Below are positions 645 to 28,038 of a DNA stretch of 28,160 nucleotides, one piece after another (position 1 is the stretch's first letter; each line of letters starts with the position of its first letter). Under the pieces are notes generated by a model. It did not search any database, was not told the origin of the DNA, and was given only the letters and a program-made list of their open reading frames with translations. Origin of the DNA: a virus. Where the stretch lies: the IMG/VR virus record IMGVR_UViG_3300036770_005527, positions 1 to 28,160 of that record. One strand, 5' to 3'. The position numbers were made by a program, and so were the translations under genes.

Positions 645-670
645 TCTATAGATCCCACTTGGATCTAATT

Positions 671-711
671 AACCCTATATATTAAATCTAATTTAATGTA
701 TAGGGTTTTTT
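671..711 (+). terminator. Rho-independent terminator, 17-bp stem
   Basis: Arms 671-687 and 691-707 pair over 17 positions with one G-T pair and a 3-nt loop (CTA). The stem runs directly into a T tract (706-711). It ends the rightward unit 101-644. The leftward strand after the hairpin lacks a T run, so termination should be mainly one-directional. Confidence 0.9.
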
Positions 712-723
712 CATGATCAAATT

Positions 724-912
724 ATGGGCCAAATTTTCCTATTACGATGATATATATAAATTCCCCAGAATTTGCAGCATATTGATCTATTTTTGTCAAG
801 AATATATATAAAATATAACAAAATGTTATAAGAATTAGACAGAATTAGATCTATTTTTATGCAAAAAATATGGGCCAAAATTGTCTATTACGATCATATA
901 TAAAAATTTCCT
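724..912. repeat. Two imperfect direct repeats, 146 bp apart, in a non-coding region
   Basis: The gap 645-1108 has no convincing gene. Copy 1 begins at 724 and copy 2 at 870. Both read ATGGGCCAAA, then a short variable stretch, then CTATTACGAT(G/C)ATATATA, followed by a TTCC run; about 40 bp align. A second repeat inside the interval is GATCTATTTTT at 784-794 and 848-858, with AGAATTAGA in tandem at 831-849. The GGCCAA core recurs in the palindrome at 929-944. The spacing and AT-richness fit regulator sites or iterons. No coding or mobile-element signature is present. Confidence 0.75.
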
Positions 913-922
913 GGAAAATCTA

Positions 923-951
923 TTGACAAATATTGGCCAATATTGTATATA
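923..951 (+). promoter_or_regulatory. Promoter with a perfect 16-bp palindrome as spacer
   Basis: TTGACA (923-928), exactly 17 nt, then TATATA (946-951). The spacer contains AATATTGGCCAATATT (929-944), a perfect dyad that would place a repressor directly between the -35 and -10 boxes. A second TTGACATTA at 952-960 follows. The promoter points rightward, into 1047-1318 and toward the convergent minus-strand genes. It could drive the small ORF at 1109 or an antisense or regulatory RNA. Confidence 0.65.
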
Positions 952-1046
952 TTGACATTACGGGGTTAAATTTGATATGCTCAATTACTCATATATCTTT
1001 TTGTTATATATATAATAGTAATTAGACATAAATTAATAGCATAATT

Positions 1047-1076
1047 CTCCACTTTACTCCACAATACTCCACTTTA
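1047..1076. repeat. Three 10-bp tandem repeats (CTCCACNNTA)
   Basis: CTCCACTTTA, CTCCACAATA and CTCCACTTTA lie head to tail with a period of 10 bp, close to one helical turn. A short dyad, GGCCTT-AC-AAGGCC, follows at 1080-1093. Both lie in the leader of the 1109 ORF. The CTCCA units are complementary to the TGGAG at that ORF's start codon, so either protein binding or RNA pairing is possible. Confidence 0.6.
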
Positions 1077-1108
1077 AATGGCCTTACAAGGCCAATAGAG
1101 AGGAGCAA

Positions 1109-1318
1109 ATGGAGGGGGGAATGAGAAGTGTTATCTACTCTTCAAATGAAATTTGTGTAGCCCATATAGCGTCTTGTTCTTTATTTTCTTTATTTTCAGC
1201 TATCTTTGGGCAATATTCAGGATTCCTATTACATTTAGGAAACAAGGGGGATTTATCACATTTACATAATATAGATGATGTAGACATTAGACTATTGTAC
1301 TATTTATCTTTTTTATAG
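1109..1318 (+). CDS. Possible small protein, 69 aa
   Basis: Not recognised. The ATG has a good GAGGAG ribosome-binding site 4 nt upstream and a promoter about 150 nt upstream (923-951). The central part is hydrophobic (roughly residues 17-42), so it may be membrane-associated. Against it: it is isolated, it lies head-on against the minus-strand operon, and no terminator follows. A second in-frame ATG occurs four codons in. It may be a real small gene or a chance ORF in a regulatory transcript. Confidence 0.4.
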   Translation: MEGGMRSVIYSSNEICVAHIASCSLFSLFSAIFGQYSGFLLHLGNKGDLSHLHNIDDVDIRLLYYLSFL

Positions 1319-5483: not shown

Positions 5484-6224
5484 CTAATACCAATCTAGGG
5501 GTAAATCCTGATTTGATTTTCTCCAAAATTCGGAGACTAAATATTTTGTTCCAGATAGCACTATATGGGCTGCATGCATGTATGGATAACCAGATGGGAA
5601 AATTACTATACTTCCAGTTTCTGGTTTAATAAAAAAATCTATTACATCTTTATTTTTTTCATGAGATACTGGGTATTGTGCGTATTGCCTTCTATTATCG
5701 TTGTCATCTTTAAACTTAACCCAGGAGATCTCTCCGCCCCTGCATTCCCTACCCATATATAATAATACGGTGTATTTTATATTAGGATTACCAGATTCTT
5801 GTCTTTGAGGTTTTTCAGTTTCTGGATGATCATAGTGTACATCTAAAAAGCCTCCAGGTCTATATAAAGATATCCTGTAATCATGATACCTAAACACTTC
5901 TTCTTTAATGTTTTTTTCATTCTTATAGTGCTCTATAGCTTTGTCAAATGCATCACTCATAGAATTTATAATATAAAGTATTTTGTCTTGAGCTTCCTTA
6001 GATACATTTAAATCTTTAAATTGATCTTCTAATGATTTCTCATTGTTAAATGTTTTTTGTAATCCCCTATGGTGATCTGGATGAGGCCAAAGTTTCCACT
6101 CGCTTATTATTTTTTTTAACTCATCATCGTATTCTGAATCTTCTATAATGTTCATAACTAATTCAGATTCTTTTATAATCGACTTATAGTAATAAACATT
6201 ATCATCTATTTTAATTACTTCCAT
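5484..6224 (-). CDS. 2OG-Fe(II) oxygenase, P4H-like
   Basis: 246 aa. Triad H130-Y-D132 and distal H217, with K227 as likely 2OG binder. The core is RISLYRPGGFLDVHYDHPE followed by a strand and an IFPSGYPYMH turn, typical of prolyl-4-hydroxylase-like oxygenases and the phage 2OG-Fe(II) family. The N-terminal 100 residues are helical and charged. It is the last gene of a run of five oxygenases transcribed leftward from the halogenase side, 1 nt from its upstream neighbour. The substrate is unknown. The Lys in place of Arg links it to the 1782 gene, not to the duplicated pair. Confidence 0.85.
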   Translation of the reverse strand: MEVIKIDDNVYYYKSIIKESELVMNIIEDSEYDDELKKIISEWKLWPHPDHHRGLQKTFNNEKSLEDQFKDLNVSKEAQDKILYIINSMSDAFDKAIEHYKNEKNIKEEVFRYHDYRISLYRPGGFLDVHYDHPETEKPQRQESGNPNIKYTVLLYMGRECRGGEISWVKFKDDNDNRRQYAQYPVSHEKNKDVIDFFIKPETGSIVIFPSGYPYMHAAHIVLSGTKYLVSEFWRKSNQDLPLDWY

Positions 6225-7186: not shown

Positions 7187-8050
7187 TTACTCCTTTATAA
7201 TAAGATCAACAACTATGCCCTCTGGCACAGTTCCTTCTTTTATTGCATTTTCTTGATTTCTTCTTGCATTAGATTTAAGCTGAACGTTGCTCAAATCAAC
7301 ATCATCAGTCATTTCATATGGATCTGAACCTAAAAATTTTCTAGTTCCTTCTGCATCATTTTCAAATGGCTCTAATATTTTATCTTTCCATTTAGACTTT
7401 AATTTATCTTGAAGAATTCTTTCTTTAAATATTAGTGATTCCATTTCTTGAAGTTCTTCTTCGTTGTACCATGAATCTGCATAGTCCCAAAAAACACATA
7501 TTGTATATCTTGTTCCTTCGGTTACTTCTGTGACTCCATGTATATTTTCTACTCCTCCTGGAAAAGCTAAAAATGTTCCGCTTTCAAGCTTTAGGCTAAT
7601 ATCATGATCTCTAAATGTTAATATTCCTCCACTGTAGTTTTCATTAAGGTAAAGTCCGCTAAACCATTTATTATCTCTCCATCCAGAGTCATTGCCTTCT
7701 AAATCTGAATTATCGGAATGATCCCTTGCAAAAGCTCCGACTTCCCATTTTTGTGCATGCATGCTGTTAATTTTCATAGGCCTTCCAGCAGCATCAGATA
7801 CGTACTGTATCATCTTTTGTCTAAGTTCTTCTAGATACTGTTCTGATATTTTTGTTTTATGATTTACTTTTAAAGGTTCTTTTATATGCATTCCATATGA
7901 CTCATAAAAACAAATTTGATTCCAGTCTGAGTATGCGGCGTTAAAAAAGTTAATTAATTCATTACATTCCTCTAAACTAATGAAATTATTGTATTTTGTA
8001 ATACTATTTCCACCTAGAATTTGTTTATCTATAGAATCTAATTGAACCAT
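7187..8050 (-). CDS. 2OG-Fe(II) oxygenase, duplicated pair member A
   Basis: 287 aa. Triad H111-S-D113 and H171, and R181 for 2OG. The core carries SGGILTFRDHDI and the FLAFPGGVENIHGV turn. It aligns along its whole length with the gene at 8051, including a C-terminal extension of about 90 residues after the catalytic domain that ends in SNARRNQENAI. That extension is not part of the usual P4H fold and is rich in charged helices. A 71-bp stretch (7743-7813) and a 41-bp stretch (7236-7276) are identical in DNA to member B. The start is 1 nt from the stop of the upstream gene. Confidence 0.85.
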   Translation of the reverse strand: MVQLDSIDKQILGGNSITKYNNFISLEECNELINFFNAAYSDWNQICFYESYGMHIKEPLKVNHKTKISEQYLEELRQKMIQYVSDAAGRPMKINSMHAQKWEVGAFARDHSDNSDLEGNDSGWRDNKWFSGLYLNENYSGGILTFRDHDISLKLESGTFLAFPGGVENIHGVTEVTEGTRYTICVFWDYADSWYNEEELQEMESLIFKERILQDKLKSKWKDKILEPFENDAEGTRKFLGSDPYEMTDDVDLSNVQLKSNARRNQENAIKEGTVPEGIVVDLIIKE

Positions 8051-8962
8051 TTAGAGCTCCTCATTATATTTATTTAGGTCCATATCTACAATAACTCCCT
8101 CTGGAACCCGATTCTCTTTTATTGCATTTTCTTGATTTCTTCTTGCATTAGATTTCATTTGACCTGGAGTCAGCGTATCTTTAAATCCAGGTGGTAAAAG
8201 ATCTGGATTGTCTAACCCAGCATAAGGGTCATCCAATATAGGGTGAGCTTCTCCTAGCTTCCATCTCTCTTTCAATCTATACTGATGAATTCTTTCTTTC
8301 ATTATAAGTCTTTCCATTTCGGTTAATTCTGCTTCTGAATACCAAGCATCAGCATAATCCCAAAATATCACAATAGTATATCTTGTGCCAGACTCAACCT
8401 CAGTGACAGAATGTATGTTTTCCATTCCTCCAGGAAAAGATATAAACGTTCCAGTTTCTGGAGAAACATCTATATTATGATCTCTAAACTTTAAAACACC
8501 TCCAGAATAATCTGGTTGGGCATTCAAATAGATTCCAGCAAACTGTTTGTTATCGCTCCACCCCATATCATTTCCTTCTAAGTCTGAGCTATCTGAATGA
8601 TCGTTTGCGTATGCGCCTTTCTCCCATTTTTGTGCATGCATGCTGTTAATTTTCATAGGCCTTCCAGCAGCATCAGATACGTACTGTATCATTCTCTGAC
8701 GCAAGTTTTGTAAATATTCTGGAGTTATTGATGTTCCGTGACCATTAGGATTGTCAAATGGTGCGATTACATGCATCCCGTAAGATCCATAAAAACAAAT
8801 TTGTCTCCACTCATCATAGAATGAATCAAAAAACTTTATTAGTTCTCTACATTCTTCTTCTGATAAAAAGTTTTTATATTCCCATATTCCAGTTCCGCCA
8901 CCACCTAAACAGATTCCATTTAGCTGACTTACTGGGTAACTTGTTTCCATTTTTGTTATCAT
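8051..8962 (-). CDS. 2OG-Fe(II) oxygenase, duplicated pair member B
   Basis: 303 aa from ATG 8962, which has GGAG 7 nt upstream; a further ATG at 8974 lies inside the preceding gene. Triad H122-S-D124 and H184, and R194 for 2OG. Compared with member A it has a Gly-rich insert (LGGGGTG) near residue 20 and an extra loop before the ISTP-like segment. It shares the C-terminal SNARRNQENAI tail. The very strong protein similarity plus two identical DNA blocks show a local tandem duplication, possibly followed by gene conversion. Confidence 0.85.
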   Translation of the reverse strand: MITKMETSYPVSQLNGICLGGGGTGIWEYKNFLSEEECRELIKFFDSFYDEWRQICFYGSYGMHVIAPFDNPNGHGTSITPEYLQNLRQRMIQYVSDAAGRPMKINSMHAQKWEKGAYANDHSDSSDLEGNDMGWSDNKQFAGIYLNAQPDYSGGVLKFRDHNIDVSPETGTFISFPGGMENIHSVTEVESGTRYTIVIFWDYADAWYSEAELTEMERLIMKERIHQYRLKERWKLGEAHPILDDPYAGLDNPDLLPPGFKDTLTPGQMKSNARRNQENAIKENRVPEGVIVDMDLNKYNEEL

Positions 8963-8963
8963 T

Positions 8964-9131
8964 TTATTCTCCATATTGCATTGATTTTAATTTTTCAAAG
9001 TGCTTGTCGCACAATGGCACCTGATTGTATATATTATCATAAGTGTGAGTAGCTGAATATTCACAGTGTGCGATAGCACAACAATTTTTTGCAGATTTAC
9101 TCATTTCATAATCATTTTTTATTCTAAACAT
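8964..9131 (-). CDS. 55-aa zinc-finger-like mini-protein
   Basis: Starts at ATG 9131, overlapping the TAA of the oxygenase upstream (TAATG); the longer frame to 9173 lies inside that gene. It contains CCAIAHC near residues 17-23 and LCDKH near 40-44, a C-n-C-n-CxxH set that could hold one zinc. The layout resembles the mini-proteins at 1420 and 12779. It ends at the ribosome-binding region of the next oxygenase. It may be a regulator or a metal carrier; there is no direct evidence. Confidence 0.6.
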   Translation of the reverse strand: MFRIKNDYEMSKSAKNCCAIAHCEYSATHTYDNIYNQVPLCDKHFEKLKSMQYGE

Positions 9132-9845: not shown

Positions 9846-10101
9846 TTACGGATAAACCTATCCATATTATATTAAAAATGATGATAGTTGGAAGGGTTTT
9901 TAGTGTAGAGGTCCATATAAGAGCTAAACTAGATAGCATAGCAAATAAATATAGCCACCACCATTGCATGCCAAATAAAAGACCAGGAAATATTATAGCT
10001 ATTTTAGTCATAAAAGCAAAAAATTCTATAGTATTTTCTTTATTCCAATATGAACTTTTTTTCATAGAATATAAAACTATTGACATATCACTAATTTTCA
10101 T
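9817..10101 (-). CDS. Small membrane protein, 94 aa
   Basis: Three hydrophobic segments, roughly residues 28-45, 47-62 and 70-90, with a Trp-rich motif (MQWWWLY) between the first two. No family recognised. It overlaps the 3' end of the halogenase gene by 11 nt and is therefore in the same operon. It could anchor a modification complex at the membrane or act independently. Confidence 0.65.
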   Translation of the reverse strand: MKISDMSIVLYSMKKSSYWNKENTIEFFAFMTKIAIIFPGLLFGMQWWWLYLFAMLSSLALIWTSTLKTLPTIIIFNIIWIGLSVIAVLKHFLV

Positions 10102-11623
10102 TATACACGCTGTCTCTCAGATATTCGTAGTGAGTAGGGCACTGATCAATAAACTCATTTGCTTTGGATATTTTATATCTTCTCATTTTTTCAAATGGCT
10201 CTATGTCCATAATATTTTTATTAAAAGTTCTTCTTGCATGTTCGAAGCCCAAAGCGTTTTTTTCTAGGTGTCCCCAACCAACGTATACTTGACTAATAGA
10301 AGACCCATAAGAATTTTTAATACTATCGTGCATTTCATAGCTATAATTTTGTGATGTAAGATCTTTCCAGTATCTAGTGTCATCTCTTAATGACAATGCA
10401 TAGTGGGCTGACACAAAAGAAAAAGCAGACTTATAAACTTCAGTTATGTAGTAATTAAATCTATCACAATCCCAGGTTGTATATTTCTCTCTAGATAAAC
10501 AATTAACTAGGTACATAGCAGCCACATGAATAAACATAAGCCCTGTACTTTCCATTGGCTCTAAAAATCCATGAGACAATCCTATAGCCACAACATTTTT
10601 TATCCATGGAGTTTTATAATATCCATTTTTTATCTGGATATTTTTGAAATCCATGTTTTTAGATCTATTTTTGTTAACAACATCCATATTTTCAGAATCT
10701 AAAAACATTTTAAATTCTTCTAAAGCCTCATCATCACTAATATATTTATCTGAATACACATATCCACAGCCAACTCTTGACCATAGCGGTGTTTGCCAAA
10801 CCCATCCGTTGCTTAATCCCGTACACTTAGTAACCAATCCTAGTTCTTTGTTTTTATCTAAATAATCATATGGACCAAACCAAGCTTTATTGTTAGGAAG
10901 ATAGCTGCTAGTGTCTACAAAGTCTGAGTTCATTTCTTTACCCAATATTAAAGATTTAAAGCCAGTGCAATCTACAAAAAGATCAGCAAAAACACTATCT
11001 CGGTTTGATAAAGATAAACTTTCTACACAATCTTCATTTTTATTTACTTTAATTACGTCTGCAACTATTCTAGTAACTCCCTTTGGAATACAATAATTAT
11101 CCCTTAGCCAATTAGCAAACTTTATAGCATTTATTTGAAAAGCTGTGTCTCTTTCAAAAACAAAAGGTTCTAAGTAATCATTTTTTTCTAATGGAATTCT
11201 ATTTGTTTTTACCGCATAAGAATGTTTATAATAATAATCTGTAAAATCTGTAAATGGAAGTTCTGGATTTTTAAATTTTAAAATATACCAATCTTCAAAT
11301 CCATTACGTGTTTGATTTAAATCAGCATTACCAAATATATATCTACGTGTTGATCCGTTTAATTCCGCAAAGTTATCAAACGATATTCCCAATTTAAACG
11401 AAGCATCACACCCTACCATTAAGCTTTTGATATCTAAATCTAAATATCTTAACCATTCATTAAATTCTAATAGCGTTGATTCTCCTACCCCAACTGTAGG
11501 TATATTTTCGCTTTCTATAACAAATATTTTCTTTTTAGGAAAACTTTTTATAAGAGTGGCAGCAGTCATCCAGCCAGCTGAACCTCCGCCAACAATTACT
11601 ATTTTTTCTGAACTAAAAGACAT
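10091..11623 (-). CDS. Flavin-dependent tryptophan-halogenase-like protein
   Basis: 510 aa, the usual length. The FAD-binding GGGSAGWMTA lies at 12-21 and GVGEST at 45-50. K77 (FKLGI) matches the catalytic lysine that forms the chloramine in PrnA-type enzymes. The family motif WxWxxP appears as WVWQTP at 274-279, and LEPMESTGL holds E357, near the PrnA catalytic glutamate. All key residues are present, so an active halogenase or related flavin monooxygenase is likely. The family chlorinates or brominates tryptophan, indoles, other aromatics or peptides and needs a flavin reductase, which is not visible here. The start is 2 nt after the DUF1660-like micro-gene. Related genes are known in marine cyanophages. 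Confidence 0.88.
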   Translation of the reverse strand: MSFSSEKIVIVGGGSAGWMTAATLIKSFPKKKIFVIESENIPTVGVGESTLLEFNEWLRYLDLDIKSLMVGCDASFKLGISFDNFAELNGSTRRYIFGNADLNQTRNGFEDWYILKFKNPELPFTDFTDYYYKHSYAVKTNRIPLEKNDYLEPFVFERDTAFQINAIKFANWLRDNYCIPKGVTRIVADVIKVNKNEDCVESLSLSNRDSVFADLFVDCTGFKSLILGKEMNSDFVDTSSYLPNNKAWFGPYDYLDKNKELGLVTKCTGLSNGWVWQTPLWSRVGCGYVYSDKYISDDEALEEFKMFLDSENMDVVNKNRSKNMDFKNIQIKNGYYKTPWIKNVVAIGLSHGFLEPMESTGLMFIHVAAMYLVNCLSREKYTTWDCDRFNYYITEVYKSAFSFVSAHYALSLRDDTRYWKDLTSQNYSYEMHDSIKNSYGSSISQVYVGWGHLEKNALGFEHARRTFNKNIMDIEPFEKMRRYKISKANEFIDQCPTHYEYLRDSVYNEN

Positions 11624-11964: not shown

Positions 11965-12060
11965 TTATAGGCCCAAATCCTCTAAAGCGTCTACTTGATC
12001 ATCAATAGACTTAATTATATCAACTGTTAGTTCGTCTGAACTATTGTTTACCTGACACAT
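11965..12060 (-). CDS. 31-aa micro-ORF, possibly the N-terminus of the next ORF
   Basis: Begins MCQVNNSSDEL and is acidic and helical. It overlaps the end of the 49-aa gene by 20 nt and has no clear ribosome-binding site. Its TAA (11965-11967) lies just where the following ORF lacks a start, 1 nt out of frame. It may therefore be the first part of a single gene read by a +1 shift or broken by an indel. I list it separately because that is what the sequence shows. Confidence 0.4.
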   Translation of the reverse strand: MCQVNNSSDELTVDIIKSIDDQVDALEDLGL

Positions 12061-12190
12061 TTTTATGTTTAGGCTTATACTCATCAAGGATAGCTTTTAC
12101 TGTCCCGTCTTTTCTAAGCCTAACAATTTTACCATCTTTAATAACTGTAGAATTAAAAGACTCATGTCTCTTATATTTACCAGATGACAT
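12041..12190 (-). CDS. 49-aa basic micro-protein
   Basis: Begins MSSGKYKRHES, Lys/Arg-rich throughout, with a short beta-hairpin-like middle (VIKDGKIVRLRKDG). The ATG overlaps the TAA of the upstream gene (TAATG). Basic character and coupling suggest a small nucleic-acid-binding protein, but no family is recognised. Confidence 0.6.
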   Translation of the reverse strand: MSSGKYKRHESFNSTVIKDGKIVRLRKDGTVKAILDEYKPKHKNVSGKQ

Positions 12191-12363
12191 TATACTTTTT
12201 TCCTACCAGTCCTTTTTGGTTGCATATTTGTTTCTCTACGAATCCCATGCTTATTAACATCTATTCTCATTGTATGTTTCTTATCTTTAATTCCAGACCT
12301 AAATTTACCTTGAGCTGGATGTTTTTTAGTAGCATCTCCAGAAGTAACTGTATTCTCTGACAC
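12190..12363 (-). CDS. 57-aa basic micro-protein
   Basis: Starts with GTG at 12363, overlapping the TAG of the Cys-rich peptide gene (TAGTG), and ends in TAATG over the next. It is strongly basic, with KKHPAQGKFRSG near the N-terminus and an RTGRKK tail, and has no Cys. Like its neighbour at 12041 it may bind DNA or RNA. Not recognised. Confidence 0.58.
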   Translation of the reverse strand: MSENTVTSGDATKKHPAQGKFRSGIKDKKHTMRIDVNKHGIRRETNMQPKRTGRKKV

Positions 12364-12461
12364 TAGTTACCCTTTACTGATTGTGATGTTACAACATTAC
12401 GATCAGCGGCAGACTCTCTTTGAGTTTCTTCTACGCTTTCGCAACCACATTCTTTACACAT
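12363..12461 (-). CDS. 32-aa peptide with MCKECGC N-terminus
   Basis: Paralogue of the adjacent 30-aa ORF. Both begin MC(I/K)ECGC (Cys at 2, 5 and 7) and then diverge into short polar tails without further Cys. The ATG overlaps the TAA of that ORF (TAATG) and the TAG overlaps the next GTG. A CxxCxC cluster at an N-terminus can bind metal. A conserved N-terminus with a variable tail is also what a leader/core peptide might look like, but there is no direct evidence for modification. Confidence 0.58.
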   Translation of the reverse strand: MCKECGCESVEETQRESAADRNVVTSQSVKGN

Positions 12462-12553
12462 TAGTTATTCCCTTGATTGGATACATCCTGGACATTAACA
12501 TCTTTAATTCCAGTTTCGCTGCCAACCATTTGGCAACCACATTCAATGCACAT
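12461..12553 (-). CDS. 30-aa peptide with MCIECGC N-terminus
   Basis: First of two tandem Cys-rich peptides, with Cys at 2, 5 and 7 followed by a polar tail ending in NQGNN. The ATG is 2 nt after the TAA of the 53-aa ORF, whose last codons give GGGCGGAAAG as a possible ribosome-binding site. Both overlaps and the paralogy with the 12363 ORF argue that it is translated. Function unknown. Confidence 0.58.
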   Translation of the reverse strand: MCIECGCQMVGSETGIKDVNVQDVSNQGNN

Positions 12554-12555
12554 TG

Positions 12556-12717
12556 TTACTTTCCGCCCTGTCCAAGTCCAGCACCATCTTGTGTTGACTT
12601 ATCTGTTGACGGGAAAGCTCCCTTTGGGTCTTGTGCATACTGAGGATTATTTCCCCATGGGGTTGTTCCTGCTGGCTTAGTGTTATTAAAGCCGTCTAAA
12701 TTTTGTCCTTCTGACAT
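12556..12717 (-). CDS. 53-aa Gly/Asn/Pro-rich protein
   Basis: Begins MSEGQNLDGFNNT, low in hydrophobics, probably unstructured, ending GLGQGGK. AGGAG 7 nt upstream gives a clear start. It opens the run of overlapping micro-ORFs that leads to the halogenase. Not recognised. Confidence 0.6.
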   Translation of the reverse strand: MSEGQNLDGFNNTKPAGTTPWGNNPQYAQDPKGAFPSTDKSTQDGAGLGQGGK

Positions 12718-12742
12718 TTTATTTCTCCTATAGGTTTTATTT

Positions 12743-12764
12743 AAGCGGGTCTAGAAGTCCGCTT
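12743..12764 (-). promoter_or_regulatory. Hairpin and extended -10 box between micro-ORFs
   Basis: AAGCGG (12743-12748) pairs with CCGCTT (12759-12764) around a 10-nt loop; no T tract follows. It lies 20-30 nt downstream (leftward) of an extended -10 box, TGATATAAT at 12773-12781, so it would be near the start of a transcript and may protect or regulate the micro-ORF message. Confidence 0.45.
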
Positions 12765-26178: not shown

Positions 26179-26251
26179 TGCCCCAAGTTGGGATCGAACC
26201 AACGCTTGTACGATTTTAAGTCGCATGCCTCTACCGCTGGGCTATAGGGGC
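26179..26251 (-). tRNA. tRNA with UAA anticodon, leucine by anticodon
   Basis: 73 nt, minus strand. Acceptor GCCCCTA/TTGGGGC with one T-T mismatch, anticodon stem TGCGA/TCGTA, loop CTTAAAA (anticodon TAA), T arm GTTGG/CCAAC, discriminator A; no CCA encoded. The D arm pairs at only 3 of 4 positions. The variable loop is 5 nt, whereas bacterial tRNA-Leu normally has a long variable arm, so identity is uncertain. Confidence 0.85.
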
Positions 26252-26254
26252 TTG

Positions 26255-26328
26255 CGATCCGTATCGGACTTGAACCGACGGCCTCTACCGTGACAGGGTA
26301 GCGCTCTAACCAACTGAGCTAACGGACC
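26255..26328 (-). tRNA. tRNA-Asp (GUC)
   Basis: 74 nt, minus strand. Acceptor GGTCCGT/ACGGATC, D arm GCTC/GAGC, anticodon stem CTACC/GGTAG with loop CTGTCAC, T arm GTCGG/CCGAT, discriminator G as expected for Asp. No CCA encoded. It is 3 nt from tRNA-Leu and 6 nt from the end of ahpD. Confidence 0.95.
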
Positions 26329-26334
26329 ACTTAA

Positions 26335-26844
26335 CTAAGAATTTAATATCTTAGCTAATGCATTTATTGTTGCGGCAATTCTTCCAATATCTCTTAATTG
26401 CTCAACACTAAATCCTTCTTGTTTTAATGTTTCATAATGTGCTTTAACACAAAAATGACATTTGCCAATTATTGAAGAGGCTAATGAGTATGCTTCAAAA
26501 TTAGCTTTTGTAGTTCCTCCATGAGAAGCAATTGCATTCATTCTTAATTGTGCAGGAAGACCTGAAAGATTTGGATCGTCCGCCATTTCAAGATATGGAT
26601 ACCACACATTATTTTGAGCCATTAGGGCGCCAGCTGTCATTGCTGCATTCTTTTCGACTTCGTTTGTAGAAGAAGCGGCAATAAACCCAATAAGCTTTCC
26701 ATTTCCAGTAGCAAATGAGGCTGCCAAAGCTAGGTGGGTCGCTAGCTCTGGATCAACCGTACTACGATTAATGACAGCATCAAGGTTTAATTTTATATCT
26801 TTGGCATATTCTGGCAAAGATTCTTTTAGCTGTTCAACCCACAT
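26335..26844 (-). CDS. ahpD: AhpD-like alkyl hydroperoxide reductase partner
   Basis: 169 aa. The active set E117, C129-H-F-C132 and H136 lies one position from the Mycobacterium AhpD residues E118, C130, C133 and H137, over a closely similar length. AhpD reduces AhpC in actinobacteria with the help of lipoyl-dihydrolipoamide proteins. The ATG overlaps the ahpC stop (TAATG), the usual ahpC-ahpD gene order. A lipoamide source must come from the host. Confidence 0.93.
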   Translation of the reverse strand: MWVEQLKESLPEYAKDIKLNLDAVINRSTVDPELATHLALAASFATGNGKLIGFIAASSTNEVEKNAAMTAGALMAQNNVWYPYLEMADDPNLSGLPAQLRMNAIASHGGTTKANFEAYSLASSIIGKCHFCVKAHYETLKQEGFSVEQLRDIGRIAATINALAKILNS

Positions 26845-27419
26845 TATAGAGTTTCTCCGCCTAGGCTTCTGTTACACGCACAAAGTTCTCCTGTTTGGAG
26901 AGCATCTAAAATGCGTAATGTTTCTTCTGGGCTTCTTCCAACATTAAGGTTGTTTACTGTTACATGCTGAATAACATTATCTGGATCAACAATAAATGTC
27001 GCACGAAGAGCAACACCATCATTTGTAAGGATTCCAAGCTGTTCTGCTAGACCAGTATACGATTCATCATCAATTTCTGAATAACTCCATTCACGAATTT
27101 GATCTGCAAATGACCATGAATTTGTCTTTTTTAAATCTTCATGTGCGTTACGCCATGCAATTTTACAGAATTCATTGTCGGTTGATCCTGTAAGCAGTAC
27201 TGCATCACGATCATTAAAATCATTTACAAGCTTGTCATATGCAACAATTTCTGTTGGGCAAACAAAAGTAAAATCTTTTGGATAAAAAACAATTACCTTC
27301 CATTTTCCTGGAAAAGATTTTTCATTTAATACTTCAAAAACATCGTCAGAGGCATCTAGTCTTCCTGGCTTTACGCCAACAATTCTAAATGGACTTAGTT
27401 TATTTCCTACTGTTTTCAT
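26844..27419 (-). CDS. ahpC: AhpC peroxiredoxin, mycobacterial three-Cys type
   Basis: 191 aa. Peroxidatic C54 in TFVCPTE, and C180 and C182 in GELCACNR near the C-terminus. Three cysteines, the last two as C-x-C, are the layout of Mycobacterium AhpC (C61, C174, C176) that works with AhpD and not AhpF. It reduces H2O2, organic peroxides and peroxynitrite. AGGAG lies 6 nt before the ATG. A weak TATATA lies upstream, 33 nt from tRNA-Asn, but the gene is probably read through from 28078. By eye it is slightly richer in G+C than its neighbours. Confidence 0.95.
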   Translation of the reverse strand: MKTVGNKLSPFRIVGVKPGRLDASDDVFEVLNEKSFPGKWKVIVFYPKDFTFVCPTEIVAYDKLVNDFNDRDAVLLTGSTDNEFCKIAWRNAHEDLKKTNSWSFADQIREWSYSEIDDESYTGLAEQLGILTNDGVALRATFIVDPDNVIQHVTVNNLNVGRSPEETLRILDALQTGELCACNRSLGGETL

Positions 27420-27452
27420 TTATCTCCTATATATAGTTTGGGATTGTTCCCG

Positions 27453-27525
27453 CTGGACCACCAGGGCTCGAACCTGGGACATTAGAGTTAACAGCTCTAC
27501 GCTCTGCCAGCTGAGCTATGGTCCA
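27453..27525 (-). tRNA. tRNA-Asn (GUU)
   Basis: 73 nt, minus strand. Acceptor TGGACCA/TGGTCCA fully paired, anticodon stem TAGAG/CTCTA with loop CTGTTAA, T arm CCAGG/CCTGG, discriminator G. No CCA encoded. It lies 5 nt from tRNA-Arg and precedes ahpC by 33 nt. Confidence 0.95.
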
Positions 27526-27530
27526 CTGTG

Positions 27531-27603
27531 CGCCCCTGAAAGGAATCGAACCTCTGACGCAGGCCTTAGAAGAGCCTCGCTCTATCCGCTGAGCTACAAG
27601 GGC
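27531..27603 (-). tRNA. tRNA-Arg (UCU)
   Basis: 73 nt, minus strand. Acceptor GCCCTTG/CAGGGGC with one G-T pair, anticodon stem AGGCT/GGCCT with loop CTTCTAA, T arm AGAGG/CCTTT, discriminator G. It reads AGA and AGG, rare in GC-rich hosts but frequent in AT-rich phage genes. Confidence 0.94.
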
Positions 27604-27615
27604 TTATAATTATAT

Positions 27616-27951
27616 CTAATTTAATTCGAATCCGTCAATATCTTCTATTGGAATAATTCCTTTTTCTTTAGCTATTTCAAAACCTTCTGGTGTAAAATGC
27701 ATTATTGCTTCCAGATTTTCATCATATTCAACTTCCATTAAACCCTCTTTATAAAGTTCGACAAGATTATTGTCTACATATTCCATATGAGCCTCCCATA
27801 ACTCTGGTGCCAAATTCTTTGTTATTGACTCATTTAACTCAAACATAGCCTCGCCATTTTCATTATATCCTGCAAATCTAATTGCACCTATCTCTAGATA
27901 ATGTTCCATTCTTTGAAATGCAAAGTGATCTTCTTCATCGTCATCAAACAT
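27616..27951 (-). CDS. 111-aa phage hypothetical protein
   Basis: Starts at ATG 27951 after AAAGGAG; the longer reading to 27969 enters the tRNA-Met. Very acidic (FDDDEEDHFAFQRMEHYLE at the start). A helix and beta segment with MEVEYDENLEAIMHFTPEGF near the end suggest a small winged fold. I recall close relatives in phages of marine bacteria, without known function. It lies between tRNA-Met and tRNA-Arg. Confidence 0.7.
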   Translation of the reverse strand: MFDDDEEDHFAFQRMEHYLEIGAIRFAGYNENGEAMFELNESITKNLAPELWEAHMEYVDNNLVELYKEGLMEVEYDENLEAIMHFTPEGFEIAKEKGIIPIEDIDGFELN

Positions 27952-27964
27952 CTTATCTCCTTTG

Positions 27965-28038
27965 TGCACCAGGTAGGACTTGAACCTACGACTACCCGAT
28001 TATGAGTCGGGGGCTCTAACCAACTAAGCTACTGGTGC
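27965..28038 (-). tRNA. tRNA with CAU anticodon, elongator Met or Ile2
   Basis: 74 nt, minus strand. Acceptor GCACCAG/CTGGTGC, anticodon stem CCCGA/TCGGG with loop CTCATAA, T arm GTAGG/CCTAC, discriminator A. G1-C72 is paired, so it is not an initiator. Met versus lysidine-modified Ile cannot be told without tilS identity elements. Confidence 0.93.

Follow-up and report, generated by a model that had tools for sequence, protein, structure and literature searches.

A putative genome terminus with a candidate host MraZ operator in uncultured actinophages related to the Stanwilliamsviridae

The genome termini of phages with direct terminal repeats (DTR) are an already known kind of site. In the cos site of phage lambda the cut adjoins phased repeats, and cos also contains a site for the host protein IHF. 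The regulator MraZ is widespread in bacteria; it represses the genes clustered for cell division and cell wall, and its loss gives little phenotype in E. coli. The MraZ binding site has been published as (AAAGTGKN3)3 (PMC5282649). For Streptomyces phages of cluster BE1 the genome ends have been mapped physically, with read starts piling up at a single base together with doubled coverage (PMC5764925).

The locus described here is an odd non-coding stretch (645-1120; the gap was given as 645-1108 in the preliminary description) of the IMG/VR record IMGVR_UViG_3300036770_005527, of which positions 1 to 28,160, the whole stretch of DNA analysed, are referred to as the window. Sequence comparison indicates that the region is most likely the genome terminus, i.e. 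the concatemer junction and terminase processing site, of a large actinophage akin to the Stanwilliamsviridae. As in lambda cos, a cut would lie beside phased repeats with a candidate site for a host protein; in distinction to lambda cos, the ends would form a DTR and not cohesive ends, and the host protein would be MraZ. The joint explanation that fits best is a terminus with a DTR of about 11-12 kb and an operator for host MraZ beside the cut, to which we assign a probability of roughly 0.8.

Organisation of the region and conservation in relatives

On its left the gap is bordered by a short rightward gene arm (ORFs 101-385 and 375-644), on its right by a long arm of leftward genes. The short arm is closed by a terminator-like hairpin (Table 1), and comparable hairpins are found at the corresponding place in relatives. 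The sequence features reported in the preliminary description were all recovered. The two imperfect direct repeats (708-770 and 854-916; 63 nt, 79% identical) are spaced by 146, and the top 40-nt self-match of the region reaches 35/40, the highest value in 100 dinucleotide shuffles being 27. The dyad does occupy the 17-nt spacer of a TTGACA/TATATA promoter; a palindrome of 16 nt was found in 3 of 100 shuffles, and the dyad is thus borderline with respect to chance, while the remaining listed elements exceed it. The CTCCAC motifs, followed by a GC-rich hairpin, start at 1047, 1057 and 1067 in exact 10-nt steps, an arrangement seen in none of 100 shuffles. ORF 1109-1318, without a family match, was considered as a gene controlled from the region and rejected, the right-hand neighbours in relatives being on the opposite strand. 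Elsewhere the minus strand of the window carries a tryptophan halogenase gene (10091-11623; phrog_2928, E 4.9e-134), at least four 2OG-Fe(II) oxygenase-like genes (1782-2489, 5484-6224, 7187-8050 and 8051-8974) and five tRNA genes (26179-28038, Rfam), the latter consistent with the tRNA-rich BE phages.

Table 1. Features of the non-coding region in window coordinates; the caret marks the predicted cut.
Feature	Position	Strand	Remarks
Terminator-like hairpin and T run	671..711	+	Arms 671-687/691-707, 94% complementary, 3-nt loop
Terminus repeat unit 1 (TATGGGCCAAATTTTCCTATTACGAT..TTCCCCAGAA), about 48 bp	723..770	+	Putative DTR side
Terminus repeat unit 2, about 48 bp	869..916	+	Putative DTR side; from repeat search and unit consensus of relatives
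Perfect dyad AATATTGGCCAATATT	929..944		Lineage-specific; between TTGACA 923-928 and TATATA 946-951
Cut-site motif TTGACATTACG-N15-TGCTC^AATTACTCA	952..991	+	Predicted terminase cut (DTR boundary) 982^983
Direct repeats AATAGTAATT / AATAGCATAATT	1014..1046	+	From alignment of 64 copies
Putative MraZ operator array, 3 x CTCCAC (GTGGAG on minus strand)	1047..1072	-	10-bp period; putative non-DTR side
Short GC-rich hairpin GGCCTTACAAGGCC	1080..1093		
AGGAG and GGAGGGGGG purine run	1101..1119	+	Conserved edge of the element

Relatives were collected via a structural protein and their whole records were then searched; a protein search with the 89-aa left neighbour gave no relatives, and at the DNA level the region showed no similarity to cultured phages. 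The non-coding part aligns at 67-85% identity in relatives, and the adjoining genes often fail to align. At least 119 viral contigs of IMG/VR matched in a scan for the CTCCAC array. Five long relatives carry the element as a single copy each, at the convergent junction of a genome of about 105-120 kb. Because the flanking genes of relatives point into the region from both sides, the rightward TTGACA/TATATA promoter has no obvious gene to drive. Kinship to Streptomyces phages, together with the background expectation for IMG/VR contigs, suggests that these are freshwater actinophages.

An alignment of 64 diverse copies was used to derive the layout of the element. Two GGGCCAAAttt..TTTACGA..AAAATCCCTGAAA repeats are followed by TTGACATTACG and, about 20 nt further on, by a near-invariant ATTAC; then come two ATAGTAT-type direct repeats, the three CTCCAC motifs at 10-bp steps, the GC hairpin and the purine run. 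The repeat consensus, built from 164 units in relatives, is aTgTGGGCcAAATtT.cc.TTTACGA..AAAAatCCctGAAA, and exactly two TTACGA units are present in 70 of 84 non-redundant copies (6.0/kb, as compared to 0.19/kb elsewhere). The direct repeats next to the array co-vary between lineages, being either ATAGTAT twice or ATAAC twice, and the arms of the GC hairpin vary by lineage (AGCCTCTAGGAGGCT, AGCCTTTAAAAGGCT and others), with the hairpin usually retained. Conservation in relatives, proposed in the preliminary description as a check on both the CTCCAC and the GGCCAA sites, is thus very strong for the array and the repeats and poor for the dyad, since a palindrome of at least 14 nt is present in the promoter spacer of only 13 of 84 relatives. 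Lying outside the conserved core, the dyad was rejected as a conserved operator.

Correspondence with the genome ends of cultured phages

The connection to cultured phages came via portal protein homology and inspection of cultured genome ends. The portal protein is 57-60% identical to those of Streptomyces phages of the Stanwilliamsviridae, and the large terminase of one long relative (G014) is 59% identical over 607 aa to that of StarPlatinum; no terminase gene was seen within the window. In all five cultured Stanwilliamsviridae the deposited genome end, which is the start of the DTR, reads ^[CT]ATTAC[AC]C, the boundary being ^CATTACACAC in StarPlatinum, Yaboi and Tomas, ^CATTACCCAC in Muntaha and ^TATTACCCTC in Francob. 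The StarPlatinum genome is likewise laid out as a short and a long arm that converge on a junction, and this junction contains the boundary of its 12,199-bp DTR; in the orientation of the window its end reads TTACG...CTGCAC^CATTACACAC and is preceded by three TTTACGA..TTCCCGGAA-type repeats. Because these homologous ends fall at the ATTAC motif, the cut in the window is predicted between 982 and 983, with a margin of a few bases.

What the freshwater phages share with the ends of Streptomyces cluster BE phages is ATTAC[AC]C at the deposited end, the convergent junction and a homologous terminase; with the long-DTR members StarPlatinum, Yaboi and Tomas (DTRs of 12,199-12,757) they further share the TTTACGA repeats, found there as a TTTACGA..AAATTCCCGGAA unit on the DTR side, and a DTR of about 12 kb, predicted in the freshwater phages. 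They differ in being AT-rich with the putative MraZ operator at +64, a place taken in StarPlatinum and Yaboi by DnaA boxes at +60; the array is absent from the terminus site of the Streptomyces phages.

The 12-mer TAGTGCGCCCAT occurs about 35 nt inside the other DTR end in all five cultured phages, and in three uncultured relatives it marks the predicted other DTR end. It is present as a single, correctly oriented copy at 12,019 (G012), 11,304 (G014) and 11,704 nt (G008) from the array, and a copy with two mismatches lies at 12,073 in G004. The search gave no copy in G013, and for G023, a possibly incomplete contig, the distance is uncertain. The spacing of 11.3-12.0 kb in the three relatives fits DTR lengths of 12.2-12.8 kb in the three cultured phages. 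Around the 12-mer the same three relatives have a conserved block of about 75 bp (AAATGTTAATA..TGTATGATACA..CGGACATTT.GGATAGTGCGCCCAT) at the predicted other DTR end. In the window this second end would be out of view, because the contig begins inside the presumed DTR. The first 110 nt of the window form a block 86-88% identical to the relatives L084/L112; the block comprises the end of a small gene and, behind it, a terminator-like hairpin. This small gene has a weak Lsr2 DNA-binding match, below the Pfam cut-off, in L085/L113, and BE phages likewise have an lsr2-like gene in the DTR.

The CTCCAC array and the operators of mraZ

With the array pattern derived from the phages, 84,980 bacterial and archaeal genomes (257 Gb) were scanned. 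There were 28 matches, one of them a phage element (L279); all 27 others lie immediately upstream of mraZ, as established by inspection and HMM, and a Pfam MraZ is encoded in 20 of the 20 match genomes checked. The 27 non-phage matches span Actinomycetota, Bacteroidales, Atribacterota, Syntrophomonas, desulfobacterial and other lineages. The phage array fits the published (AAAGTGKN3)3 site, and it has at least three direct GTGG-type boxes at a 10-bp period, as MraZ operators do. Its three GTGGAG boxes, their period and the short AT linkers are the same as in the MraZ operator of the dcw cluster; in distinction to that operator, the phage array is upstream of neither mraZ nor any other gene and stands at what appears to be the genome terminus. 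As it adjoins no mraZ in the phages, it is to be regarded as operator sequence rather than as an mraZ promoter.

To guard against circularity, elements were found anew with a cut-site pattern free of the CTCC array (n=66). The array is present in 65 of them, starting 64 or 65 nt beyond the cut, with a core identity of 0.99 compared to 0.74 in both flanks. In the divergent lineages L133, L202, L203 and G013 (L264) it is still present and shifted so close to the cut that it nearly touches it; many AAACCATCAAACC/GGTTTGATGGTTTG repeats are found upstream in these lineages. None of the 21 phage genomes searched encodes MraZ, and the array, taken as a 40-mer, has nothing comparable in cultured phages. 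Because the phages searched lack MraZ and the array matches mraZ operators, it is most likely an operator-type sequence that would bind the MraZ of the host. The conservation of the array, its position at the genome end in relatives and its identity with mraZ operators are all supported by these comparisons.

Alternative readings and possible function

The array could instead be the recognition site of a ring formed by the phage's own small terminase, its likeness to MraZ operators having arisen by convergence. Three sites phased by 10 bp beside a cut do resemble the R sites of lambda cosB, and the nearly constant distance of 64/65 nt between array and cut would suit such a function; on the other hand the pattern with its linkers retrieved, among non-phage matches, mraZ operators only, and StarPlatinum does without the array despite its 59% identical large terminase. 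We consider this explanation rather unlikely. Still less probable is that the convergent junction houses an origin of replication which host DnaA opens, the repeats being iterons, the AT-rich part melting and the boxes recruiting the helicase. The window has no DnaA box, and the GC-skew analysis suggested in the preliminary description gave a skew that only tracks gene orientation. None of 20 genomes encodes a DnaA domain IV and there is no adjacent initiator gene, while the deposited genome ends already explain the position of the element. What speaks for an origin is that the region is AT-rich and repeat-rich, occurs once in each of the five long relatives and is 15.7-fold enriched in TTATCCACA over its flanks (89 boxes in 47 of 132 copies, which are not phylogenetically independent). 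These boxes are often paired 11-12 bp apart, and in StarPlatinum and Yaboi they take the position that the array has in the freshwater phages; many, however, are located upstream in a terminator-like hairpin near -390, other copies adjoining the cut. Clusters of TTATCCACA near the cut, often with this spacing of 11-12 bp, are seen in L140, L172, L156, L166, L187 and L214. Terminus and origin could overlap, and host DnaA may also act at the terminus.

Two further readings place transcription at the centre. A structured non-coding RNA gene, read rightward from TTGACA-N17/18-TATGCT, is very improbable: the fold of the stretch in the window does surpass those of shuffles (z -3.96 to -5.3) and the arms of the small hairpin differ across lineages, but RNAalifold gave no consensus pairs across 64 sequences, L164 folds no better than shuffles, Rfam has no match in the region, and the direct repeats that make up the invariant parts suggest DNA-binding sites. 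Least credible of all is the switch favoured, besides an origin, by the preliminary description, in which a phage regulator on the GGCCAA dyad represses the promoter around it. The window does show this arrangement of TTGACA-17-TATATA and dyad exactly, but a conserved downstream gene is absent, the flanking arms converge, and the dyad is gone from most relatives, an outcome that the same description had held to make an operator role unlikely. The notion of a repressor operator does survive in another form, as CTCCAC would be one, that of host MraZ. The reading as switch or origin was largely wrong, although the region is indeed special and contains operator sites.

For a terminus with a MraZ operator, the following course of events can be proposed. 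All sequence up to about 982 would belong to the repeated DTR, and what follows would be unique. The terminase would cut replicated concatemers at TTACG-N20-TC^ATTAC; the two TTTACGA repeats of the DTR side, as likely recognition sites, would probably guide it to this place. We infer that host MraZ would bind the near-invariant operator 64 bp past the cut, on the unique side, with one of two purposes. It may play an architectural part at the junction during packaging, much as IHF does at lambda cos; alternatively the array may be a sink, with the multiplied phage DNA titrating MraZ off its own operator. The near-fixed spacing of array and cut speaks slightly for the architectural part, and the displaced array of the divergent lineages slightly for titration. 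On balance we lean, by little, towards the view that a widespread group of actinophages has built a host MraZ operator into its packaging terminus, where MraZ acts or is titrated; host MraZ would then be a factor in packaging or junction processing, or its titration would alter the expression of host division and cell-wall genes.

In the open literature searched, subscription papers lying outside its scope, we found neither a report of a MraZ operator in a phage nor the cut or terminus motif of these uncultured phages, and both the motif and the MraZ operator as its host-factor component appear to be new. If the interpretation is true, a cis-acting motif for genome ends would be available for the first time in a large group of uncultured actinophages, and the virion genome length and the size of the DTR would become predictable from contigs. 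It would also tie a phage terminus to MraZ, and the near-unchanged operator would offer a direct lead on the meaning of MraZ occupancy during infection.
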